Positions 60,908-64,000 of a stretch of DNA of 64,000 bases are shown one piece after another. Origin of the DNA: Candidatus Hydrogenedentota bacterium (GTDB lineage: Bacteria > Hydrogenedentota > Hydrogenedentia > Hydrogenedentales > JAEUWI01); assembly GCA_016791475.1 (NCBI GenBank), contig JAEUWI010000005.1, positions 1 to 64,000 on the forward strand, written 5' to 3'. The translations under genes and the position numbers were made by a program. A model generated the notes under the pieces. It had not been told where the DNA came from and did not search any database. It saw only the letters and a program-made list of their open reading frames with translations. Within the stretch, counting starts at the first letter, position 1. The number at the start of each line of letters is the position of its first letter.

Positions 60908-61020
60908 GGGACCCAAGGGACCCAAGGGACCCAAGGGACCCAAGGGACCCAAGGGACCCATAAGACCCATAAGACCCATAAGACCCATAAGACCCATAAG
61001 ACCCATAAGACCCATAAGAC
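60908..61020 (-). repeat. 9-bp tandem array, about 13 units
   Basis: Read on the minus strand it starts with about seven GGGTCTTAT-type units and changes to GGGTCCCTT (about six). The leading unit is the same as in the array at 3381-3533, in the same orientation to the upstream gene. Confidence 0.9.
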
Positions 61021-61034
61021 CCGCCACCCCCCTC

Positions 61035-61069
61035 AAAAAAAATCACACCCCCGAATACCGGGGGTGTGA
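61035..61069 (-). terminator. Rho-independent terminator after the metalloprotease gene
   Basis: 11-bp stem TCACACCCCCG/CGGGGGTGTGA (61043-61053/61059-61069, 5-nt loop), followed on the minus strand by eight T (61035-61042). Confidence 0.9.
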
Positions 61070-61098
61070 CACGAAACCCACTACACCGAAAAGTCCCA

Positions 61099-63441
61099 TC
61101 AGGACTTCGCCTTCTCCTGGGCTTTGGCAATCGCCCGCAACTCCGCCATGAACTCCGACACCTCCATCTTATCGGGCACCGTCTCGCCAGGAGCCAGCGA
61201 CTTGGCCTTCTTGGCCTTGATATCGGGCGGGGTGGCCACATACTTCGTCTTCGTGGCGGCATCCAGAGACACGAGTTGCTTTCCACCCAGACCATTGTAG
61301 ACCAGGTAGCCCTCGCCTTCGACATACTGGAGATAAAGAACTACTTCCTCGCCCGCGCTGAAGCTGGGCAGTTCGCTGACCTGGGTATCCAGACCGCCGA
61401 CACGCCCGCCAATCTGGCTGAAGGTGACCGTGGACTGCTTGTTCAAGCCGCCCTTGGCTTTGTCTTCAATCTGCACCACCACGTCGGTATAGATATAGGA
61501 GGTGCCGCCTTCCCACCGCGCCTGCGCGCTCGTAATCGTGCCGGAGACCACATCCGTGGCGCCGGCCACAAGCTGCTCGGTGTTCTGATATTGCAGCACG
61601 GCCTGGGCGCCCGGCGTGAGCATGAGTCCCAGAAGCAGCGCACCCGCGACGCCGGATACCGCCCGACGACGTTTGCGAAGCCCGTAAACTATCCCGGAAA
61701 GAAGGACTGAAACTCCCAGAATCATGGTGAAATTCTCCATGCACCAGTAGAATGCCCGAACGGCCTTGACGGTGGCGCCCAGCGCGAAACTGTTGCCCAA
61801 GAGGAAGCGGGCGGCCGAGGGGGAGACTTTGTAGTAGGTTTCAACGATGAAACTACCCAGGGGGGTCTCCATTAGAACGGTGTCGCGCAGTGACCGAACG
61901 GCATTCGCGCCTTTGGCCGCCTGGTTCAGAGCGCCCGTGCCGCCGCCGGCCGCGACCGAACTCACCACGTTCAGGATACAGACGTCATTGGGGTCCCCGA
62001 ACATCGGGTCGTCGCCCAGGATCTCTTCAATGCTGCGCTCGGTGTCGGTGCTGACGAGCGTTCCACGTTCGAAATCCCAGACAAGCGCCGTGCCGGCATC
62101 CTTGTTGGAGACGTCGATGATGTTTTCAACTTCATGAAACACTTCCGACGGATACGTATTGAATACGGTGGTGCGTCCGCCGATGTTGTCGAATTCTTCC
62201 ACCGAGAAGCCGGGGGGCGACTGGCGATCATAGCCGCCGCCGTTGAACGGCGTCATGCTGAGCGTATAAGTCGCGTTGATCACGCCCGATCCGGTTTCGA
62301 GAGTCTTCCACAGGTTGTTAATCTCGAACCAACCATCCCGCTCGGTGTTCTCCGGATTCTCAAAGTAGGCGGTGAAGGCGCTGAAAAGGGGAACGCGGGG
62401 TGTCGCTTCGTCGTTGTCCACGTCCGCCCAGGCGACTACATGCGCGCTTGCAACCTGGATCGACGGAAGACCCGTGCCCGGACGCGTGCGGGTGCGCGCC
62501 TCACCCGTAAGATCAAAAAACAGGTCCTGGCTACCACGAGGATAGAGCCACGAGATGGCCGAGATGTCGTCCGGCGCGAGATCGGCCCCGCCGCCTTCAA
62601 GTCCGCCGCCCTCGGCGGTCACTTCGAAGATAAACGGGAACATCGTCGGCGTAACGCCGATGCGGCGCTGCACACCCGCGATGCTGTGCACCATGGCCGT
62701 CGTTTCAATCAGGCTGGCGTCGCTCTCGGTGAGGTTGTTGAGGGGCGTGTGGCCCATGCCAAAGAAGTGGCCCATTTCGTGAACAAGCACGCTCTGGAGG
62801 TCCCCGAGCGGCTCTTCACCCAGGACTTGAGGACGCACCGTATCCGCGACGATAATCACGTCGTTGTCGACAATGTTTCCGGCGCTTACGAGGTAGGATT
62901 CGCTCGGCGTATCGATAATCACATCGTCGACGGCGTGTATATAGACGTTGACACCCAGCACGCCGGCGGGCAGGGCGAAAATGACATCGGCGGGATCGGG
63001 CTCCACGTTCTCGTCGGGAAGTCCATCGCCATCCAGATCCACCGTGCTCGTAACCTGCATCACAATGGTATTCTGCAAATCCGCGGTGCCGCCGGCGATG
63101 ACCGGATCCTGAAACAGGCCAATCTCGTCTACGGACGCGTAGCTCTGCGGAACACGCTCCCATACGGCGAAGGACTCGCGGACAATCTCCAGCTCCGCCT
63201 CGGTGAAACCGCTCCGACCATTTTCGATCAGGACGGGCACACCCTCGGTCTCTTCCACGCGGCCATTGTTGTTGGCATCGAAGTCGTTCACCCGATGCTT
63301 CTTGATACGAAGCACATCGAATGAATCGAAACTACCCAGCGGGAAGATAGCCCAGGTATTGGTGGCAAGTAACAGGCCGCCGGCCAGTATCGCCATTCCT
63401 AAGTGTCGTCTACGCGAGATCACGTATCCATTTCCTTTCAT
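61099..63441 (-). CDS. Metzincin-type protease with CFI-box-like segment fused to a second secreted domain
   Basis: 780 residues. Signal peptide 1-31. EF-type loops DANNNGRVE (54-62) and DLDGDGLPDE (~135-144). The zinc motif HEMGHFFGMGH at 221-231 (three His, catalytic Glu222) places residues ~75-300 among matrixin-like metzincins; NDITALQYLYP is replaced by DDISAISWLYP. Residues ~488-545 resemble the CFI-box C-terminal region (VCILNVV...; SLRDTVLMETPLGSFIVETYYKVSPSAARFL). A membrane helix (571-588) and RKRRR follow, as at the end of a protein, but the frame continues into a second signal-peptide-like stretch (594-613, ending AQA) and a beta domain (620-720). It looks like two exported proteins joined in one frame. 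Confidence 0.85.
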   Translation of the reverse strand: MKGNGYVISRRRHLGMAILAGGLLLATNTWAIFPLGSFDSFDVLRIKKHRVNDFDANNNGRVEETEGVPVLIENGRSGFTEAELEIVRESFAVWERVPQSYASVDEIGLFQDPVIAGGTADLQNTIVMQVTSTVDLDGDGLPDENVEPDPADVIFALPAGVLGVNVYIHAVDDVIIDTPSESYLVSAGNIVDNDVIIVADTVRPQVLGEEPLGDLQSVLVHEMGHFFGMGHTPLNNLTESDASLIETTAMVHSIAGVQRRIGVTPTMFPFIFEVTAEGGGLEGGGADLAPDDISAISWLYPRGSQDLFFDLTGEARTRTRPGTGLPSIQVASAHVVAWADVDNDEATPRVPLFSAFTAYFENPENTERDGWFEINNLWKTLETGSGVINATYTLSMTPFNGGGYDRQSPPGFSVEEFDNIGGRTTVFNTYPSEVFHEVENIIDVSNKDAGTALVWDFERGTLVSTDTERSIEEILGDDPMFGDPNDVCILNVVSSVAAGGGTGALNQAAKGANAVRSLRDTVLMETPLGSFIVETYYKVSPSAARFLLGNSFALGATVKAVRAFYWCMENFTMILGVSVLLSGIVYGLRKRRRAVSGVAGALLLGLMLTPGAQAVLQYQNTEQLVAGATDVVSGTITSAQARWEGGTSYIYTDVVVQIEDKAKGGLNKQSTVTFSQIGGRVGGLDTQVSELPSFSAGEEVVLYLQYVEGEGYLVYNGLGGKQLVSLDAATKTKYVATPPDIKAKKAKSLAPGETVPDKMEVSEFMAELRAIAKAQEKAKS

Positions 63442-63528: not shown

Positions 63529-63999
63529 CTACACGCGGCTCCGGGCGCTTTTGCGCCGTACGCCGAAGGCCAGGCCCGCGAAGACCAGCGACAAGAGCAC
63601 CACATCACCCAGCGGCGAAGAGGTACCGCCGCCATTCGGACCGCAACTGAAGGGTCCGATGTTCGGCTTGGCCACGGGGTCGCTGACAAACTCGAAGGCG
63701 TTCAGCTTGATCGCTTCCGTGCCGTTCGTATCGTTCGCAACCGTTACGCTCATCACATCCACTTCGGCAAAGCCACCGGTCGGGTAGCCCACGCTGATTT
63801 CCGTACCCTCGCTGTTGACCGCGAGGATCGTCATCAACGTTTCGCCAAAGCGAACGATCATGTCCTCACGGGCTCCGAAGTTCGAACCGATGACCTTCAC
63901 CGGGAAGTCCGACTTCTTGGCCTTCGCCGGCGACACGCGCGTGATGACCGGAGCCACGTCGCCCGTGCCGTTCACCAGCGTGAAGAGATTGGAGCGACT
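63529..63999 (-). CDS. C-terminal part of an IPT/TIG-domain surface protein with Cys-type sorting signal (5' end outside window)
   Basis: The frame is open to the right edge, so the gene begins outside the window; the GTG at 63975 is an internal Val codon. The visible ~156 residues contain an IPT/TIG domain (PVITRVSPAKAKKSDFPVKVIGSNFG; then FGETLMTILAV) of the type found in surface receptors and adhesins. The C-terminus has a Cys, ten residues (Gly/Ser-rich), LGD, a hydrophobic helix and Arg-Arg-Lys, the same layout as the tail of the protein at the left edge. It is presumably exported and anchored by this tail. No enzyme motif is visible. Confidence 0.78.
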   Translation of the reverse strand, partial: SRSNLFTLVNGTGDVAPVITRVSPAKAKKSDFPVKVIGSNFGAREDMIVRFGETLMTILAVNSEGTEISVGYPTGGFAEVDVMSVTVANDTNGTEAIKLNAFEFVSDPVAKPNIGPFSCGPNGGGTSSPLGDVVLLSLVFAGLAFGVRRKSARSRV

Positions 64000-64000
64000 G

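Follow-up and report, generated by a model that had tools for sequence, protein, structure and literature searches.

Several bacterial metzincins are encoded beside a gene for an inhibitor-like protein. In Listeria monocytogenes, the secreted metzincin Mtz adjoins Tim, a protein of predicted TIMP-like structure; Tim, a lipoprotein, is reportedly cleaved by Mtz, and no inhibition was demonstrated (PMC8235301). In Pseudomonas aeruginosa, Mep72 and BamI are products of adjacent genes and bind each other, and BamI, which its authors predicted to be partly unfolded, relieves the toxicity of Mep72 in E. coli (PMC4334185). In Tannerella forsythia, genes for the potempins, lipoprotein inhibitors, lie upstream of those for the KLIKK proteases (PMC7296668). 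Whereas such pairs are known as separate genes, the pair described here from Candidatus Hydrogenedentota appears, from its sequence, to be made as a single chain.

The gene lies in a stretch of 64,000 nucleotides (the window, by which we mean this whole stretch) from a genome of 7.7 Mb assembled in 529 contigs. Its open reading frame begins with ATG and encodes 780 amino acids plus a stop, with no internal stop codon. The initial annotation had listed a metzincin motif, a CFI-like segment, a membrane helix, RKRRR and a second signal-peptide-like stretch with AQA, all of which are present, and had placed a beta domain at the C-terminal end, which is borne out by residues 615-780, although its TIMP-like identity had not been recognized. 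It is this identity of the second domain that gives the fusion its meaning. The features are as follows.

61099-63441, minus strand: the whole candidate polyprotein gene (open reading frame, 40 aligned orthologues, full-length AlphaFold model).
63349-63441, minus strand: predicted N-terminal signal peptide, residues 1-31 (hydrophobic core; near-invariance of A31 and F32).
62530-63348, minus strand: matrixin (MMP-like metzincin) catalytic domain by fold, about residues 32-304 (Foldseek, VIA).
62749-62781, minus strand: zinc-binding motif HEMGHFFGMGH, residues 221-231 (sequence).
61678-61980, minus strand: divergent CFI-box-like tail with C488, an LRxxRD...YYxxSP core and membrane helix 571-588 (subthreshold NF041770 match, layout).
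61663-61677, minus strand: RKRRR, the predicted cytoplasmic loop, residues 589-593 (positive loop charge across orthologues).
61600-61662, minus strand: predicted internal signal peptide, residues 594-614, ending in AQA at 612-614 (AxA conservation, spacing to the NTR domain).
61102-61599, minus strand: TIMP-like NTR (OB-fold) domain and C-terminal helix, residues 615-780 (AlphaFold, Foldseek, VIA).
61042-61070, minus strand: strong intrinsic terminator directly 3' of the gene (13-pair stem and T run; dG -23.8, z -3.35).

The N-terminal signal peptide is likely to be cut after A31. A further domain lies between the metzincin part and C488, reaching about residue 480. The full-length model has a pLDDT of 81.3, with values below 50 confined to the two export segments and one short linker, and a pTM of 0.78, which by itself is no proof that the NTR domain docks onto the metzincin.

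Between the terminator and gspC, at 60908-61022, lie two abutting perfect 9-bp tandem arrays, GGGACCCAA repeated 5.9 times and GACCCATAA repeated 7.6 times; an unrelated 9-bp array is found just downstream of one orthologue (L014, 4025-4072). Beyond the arrays is a type II secretion cluster encoding GspC, D, E, F, G, a second G-like protein, H-, I- and J-like pseudopilins, GspK and a PilM/GspL-like protein. Linkage to gspC is also seen at L004, L070, L071 and L072, with a helicase in its place at L007, and this neighbouring system could plausibly export the mature proteins. The upstream gene (63529-64000 of the window, continuing to about position 75000 of the contig) encodes a giant protein of more than 3,800 amino acids with TIG and other repeats. 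Its Cys-containing tail (CGP or CAP...GD, helix, Arg) is common to the orthologues, matches no sorting-signal model and is perhaps an undescribed sorting signal.

The fused arrangement is conserved across the order. Sixty-six of 100 relatives matched the whole protein as a query, and a profile of the beta domain matched in 56 of 68 genomes (G000-G067). The open frame crosses the junction in 53 of these 56; in the other three it ends at a contig end within the beta domain. The orthologues are mostly about 30-60% identical, and the relatives with named records are Candidatus Hydrogenedentota, one that bears a Nitrospiraceae label grouping in the same order. No split version of the fused gene was found among the 56 genomes, indicating that the fusion is old in Hydrogenedentota. 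Short stand-alone frames in G004, G066 and G054, considered as unfused genes, turned out to be truncated at contig ends, and what looked like a stop in G045 is the normal end of an intact fused frame of 804 amino acids. One orthologue (L068:3877-7620) is 1,248 amino acids long, with an apparent trypsin-like domain inserted within a zinc-less metzincin part.

The metzincin part has a matrixin catalytic fold and the HExxHxxGxxH zinc motif. Foldseek matched it to MMP-11 (1hv5, E 5e-4) and karilysin (2xs3, E 5.9e-4), with MMP-13 also among the best matches, and VIA gave a Z of 10.0 across 160 residues for model residues 32-304 against MMP-type structures. The Pfam model PF00413 matched a short stretch only, at 17.3 bits, below its gathering score of 24. 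By modelled fold and motif we therefore regard this part as a matrixin with putative proteolytic activity, not as a member of Pfam M10.

The tail that follows resembles a CFI-box but departs from it in both score and position. The NCBIfam CFI-box-CTERM model NF041770 matched residues 511-549 at E 2.4e-7 and 30.5 bits, and neither this score nor one of 34.9 bits reaches the cut-off of 40, so we consider the segment a divergent relative of the CFI-box. Its core spans residues 514-548; the invariant C488 precedes ILN here and PLN in most orthologues, and FI is absent. CFI-box segments normally end proteins, as the initial annotation stated, and in the same genome all three true members do terminate in this way, the CFI-box being followed by a helix and an Arg-rich tail. 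The fused gene carries this entire type of tail (segment, helix and RKRRR) internally and then continues in frame. Our literature search on the CFI-box found no paper. MYXO-CTERM is nearly absent from the genome, with one weak match above the cut-off, and for this reason we do not invoke a myxosortase.

The C-terminal domain adopts an NTR (OB) fold according to both its model and its structural matches. An AlphaFold model built with 36 orthologues reached a pLDDT of 96.2 and a pTM of 0.90, and its 16 best Foldseek matches in the PDB all belong to the NTR/TIMP superfamily (E 0.004-0.06, probability 0.97-1.00), including the PCOLCE NTR domain, agrin NtA, TIMP-2, MMP-bound TIMP-1 and complement C3. 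VIA aligned the model to agrin NtA with a Z of 10.2 and to N-TIMP-3, taken from a complex with TACE, with a Z of 9.9. Residues 615-780 contain no cysteine, so Cys1 and the disulfides of the TIMP family proper are missing; the domain is thus TIMP-like in fold but is not a TIMP, and it lacks the Cys1-mediated chelation of true TIMPs. It belongs to no Pfam or NCBIfam family, and a profile search of PDB sequences with the NTR alignment returned nothing meaningful. The BamI model NF052435 had no match in the source genome at E 10, and matched one distant orthologue at E 0.023, short of its curated cut-off.

The junction between the two parts has the properties of an internal signal peptide. In all 40 aligned orthologues it consists of the helix, a positive loop (net charge +3 to +8), a hydrophobic stretch (residues 594-611 here) and AxA. 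Position -3 is Ala in 37 of the 40 (Gly in two, Val in one) and position -1 is Ala in 37 (Ser in two, Gly in one), whereas position -2 is free, with His, Gln, Asp and Glu frequent; residue +1 is variable. The two Ala columns are the least variable of the 72 junction columns, also once sequences more than 60% identical are dropped. AxA with a free -2 position is what signal peptidase I classically recognizes. The conservation thus points to this enzyme, genes for which are found in the source genome, and from the sequence pattern it very likely cuts after A614 (position 61600). The predicted product starts at V615, and its semi-tryptic peptide begins VLQYQNTEQLVAGATDVV. RKRRR would then both end the sorting tail and form the n-region of the internal signal peptide.

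Spacing supports the same assignment. With cut sites placed by a simple scorer and the distance counted up to and including a conserved Gly, 28 of 40 Hydrogenedentota junctions have 20 residues, and 37 of 43 stand-alone relatives that bear a signal peptide have 21; the remaining distances are mostly 1-3 off, through ambiguous sites. As the two agree within one residue, the internal segment occupies the place of a stand-alone signal peptide. In the full-length model, residues 614-776 align with residues 1-121 of N-TIMP-3, and a cut after A614 would thus leave an N-terminus that coincides in the model with TIMP residue 1-2, within one residue of where TIMPs start. In TIMPs it is the N-terminus that inserts into the active site of the MMP.

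We found the same pairing, mostly as separate genes, well beyond Hydrogenedentota. An NTR protein is present in 107 of 117 sampled genomes of Myxococcota (the phylum of G095, an assignment judged by MXAN and MYXO-CTERM gene families), usually as a small frame that has a signal peptide of its own. In 28 of the best 30 of these loci a metzincin frame with the motif HExxHxxGxx[HD] directly follows or overlaps the NTR frame, nearly always in a different frame from it. Adjacent separate genes also occur at L112, L116, L122 and L123, the first of these being a second, unfused metzincin/NTR pair within Hydrogenedentota. Single chains are found too: at L115, L119 and L121 the NTR domain stands right behind the signal peptide and is followed by the metzincin, and at L118 a metzincin precedes the NTR domain with no membrane segment. 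The order at L115, L119 and L121 gives the NTR domain the look of a pro-domain. Except at L118, the NTR domain lies directly behind a signal-peptide-like segment in all these relatives.

The junction design itself recurs in another phylum. In a single genome (G332; L117:1413-3311), one relative of which ends at a contig end, a 633-residue frame encodes a metzincin, a Cys-containing tail, a helix, RYRR, a signal peptide ending in PAAA and an NTR domain. Its tail differs from that of the Hydrogenedentota fusion while the junction design is the same; judged from these sequences, it is apparently independent, and the metzincin-NTR fusion probably arose more than once. In two closely related Hydrogenedentota genomes, one of them Hydrogenedens, the chain has three parts in frame (L051:328-8418 and L053:109-8445, the latter from Hydrogenedens), about 2,650 amino acids from the likely start: the upstream giant TIG-domain protein, the metzincin and the NTR domain. 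The extra junction again consists of tail, loop and a signal peptide ending in GHA or GQA, then FFP.

Our combined findings suggest that a protease, or a pseudoprotease, is probably synthesized together with its TIMP-like inhibitor or partner as a single chain that is split at the membrane, the gene product being exported twice. The N-terminal signal peptide would export the matrixin-type metzincin, and translocation would stop in the inner membrane at the CFI-like tail and helix. RKRRR would remain cytoplasmic and start the internal signal peptide, which would export the NTR domain; signal peptidase I would then cleave behind AQA, freeing the N-terminus where TIMPs begin. Unless trimmed by another enzyme, the metzincin would retain the tail helix, the loop and the remnant of the signal peptide at its end. 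Derivation from one chain would guarantee equal amounts of the two parts, which we think likely bind each other; the NTR domain would most likely occupy the active-site cleft and keep the metzincin inactive, or help it to mature, until both reach their final place. Inhibition of the TIMP kind is only somewhat favoured, and solely for chains with an intact zinc site. Most probably the NTR domain exerts TIMP-like control over the active metzincin and forms a stable complex with the inactive one. The initial annotation had offered two fused neighbouring genes, giving a polyprotein split at the membrane, as one of two readings. It is the better supported of them, the partners being separate in the Myxococcota loci and at L112, while the adjacent split orthologues that it had named as a sign of fusion did not appear for this very gene.

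The alternative that survives best retains the processed polyprotein and gives the NTR domain a non-inhibitory role, as a folding helper, a pro-domain-like adaptor or a surface-binding partner, with a binding complex where the protease is dead; we regard this as possible, if rather unlikely. It draws on the fate of the zinc site: of 39 orthologues, 18 retain the ligands and 21 have lost them, and the tree shows four changes of state, at least three of them on well-supported branches. The zinc-less orthologues retain both the junction and the NTR domain, which must therefore have a role beside a dead protease too, and protease inhibition cannot be its sole role. The lack of cysteine, and the presence of non-inhibitory NTR modules (agrin NtA, complement) among the nearest folds, fit this alternative as well. 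Against it, the domain accompanies metzincins, most of them with an intact zinc motif, in many phyla and in varied architectures, and nearly always starts directly at the signal-peptide cut, as an N-terminal inhibitory wedge needs. A covariation of mature residue 4 (Tyr or Pro) with zinc loss (Fisher p 0.006) vanished on independent tree pairs.

An uncut chain that spans the membrane twice, with both domains on the same side and a helical hairpin between them, was the second reading of the initial annotation. The geometry of transmembrane segment, positive loop and transmembrane segment does fit such a hairpin, and a fused chain would hold the partners together. The signal-peptidase pattern is left unexplained, however: an uncut hairpin has no reason to conserve AxA, with its free -2 position, above all else, nor does it account for a segment that equals the cleavable signal peptides of stand-alone relatives in position and length, making this reading improbable.

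Cleavage of the junction by the metzincin itself, also raised initially, is very improbable. The protease does lie in the same chain, and the Listeria metzincin cleaves its TIMP-like partner (PMC8235301), but the 21 zinc-less orthologues keep the junction and AxA unchanged. Since AxA does not track the loss of the zinc ligands, the junction is not maintained for the protease's own use. We give just as little credence to separate translation of the second protein from an internal start codon, with no polyprotein. Some in-frame ATG, GTG or TTG lies 17-35 codons upstream of the cut in 31 of 40 orthologues, and a few (L042, L040 and L039) have a Shine-Dalgarno-like stretch, whereas the other nine, including the gene in the window, have no start codon in this range, the positions are not conserved, and the constant absence of a stop is left unexplained. 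Finally, the proposal that a sequencing or assembly error deleted a stop near 61665-61690, in favour of which only the 529-contig state of the assembly speaks, can be discarded as practically impossible, as no orthologue carries a stop there and the open frame is shared by 53 genomes at mostly about 30-60% identity.

The preferred reading, of a chain separated at the membrane, may extend further. We tentatively propose that bacterial lineages turn protease-inhibitor operons into polyproteins by running a sorting tail into the next signal peptide, with a shared Arg cluster, such that the inhibitor's N-terminus becomes active only upon the signal peptidase I cut. This would have happened in Hydrogenedentota, where it was extended to a three-part chain, and separately in the other phylum. 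If true, activation of the inhibitor would be coupled to the export of its protease. Polyproteins of such a kind are familiar in viruses and rare in bacteria, and our literature search on bacterial polyproteins with internal signal peptides found mainly viral cases; a conserved bacterial example, divided by the housekeeping signal peptidase, would be among the few outside viruses. Sorting tails, moreover, can lie inside a chain, and annotation pipelines that expect them only at the end will overlook such cases. The fused gene is also strong evidence that the bacterial TIMP-like NTR family, common in the sampled Myxococcota and lacking a Pfam or NCBIfam model, works with metzincins. With a matrixin and a TIMP-like partner joined in one gene, it becomes testable whether bacteria, too, use MMP/TIMP-type control.

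Mtz-Tim, Mep72-BamI and the KLIKK proteases with their potempins are thus the documented bacterial metzincins with inhibitor-like neighbours, and none is a single chain. Mtz-Tim shares with the fused gene the combination of a metzincin and a TIMP-like partner, but it comprises two genes and has no internal signal peptide. Mep72-BamI likewise pairs a metzincin with a cognate partner, but from separate genes. Karilysin, which pairs with PotA (PDB 8b2q), has one of the folds closest to the metzincin part, and here too the pair comprises two genes; PotA was absent among the matches listed for the NTR model and profile. The MYXO-CTERM metalloproteases of the MXAN_2677/2678 family (NF041905; myxosortase, PMC11980579) are metzincins with a C-terminal sorting tail and, in Myxococcota, an adjacent NTR gene; there the tail is terminal, and the NTR and metzincin genes are separate, overlapping and in reversed order relative to the fused gene. 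Vertebrate MMPs and TIMPs match both folds, and the predicted mature N-terminus is in TIMP register in the model, whereas TIMPs have Cys1 and disulfides that the NTR domain lacks, and MMP and TIMP genes are separate in animals; inhibition in Hydrogenedentota is putative. As for processing, the cytochrome b/c1 precursor fbcH of Bradyrhizobium japonicum is a single chain whose internal signal peptide is cut by signal peptidase to yield two proteins. Its products are respiratory subunits, with neither protease nor sorting tail, unlike the fused gene described here.
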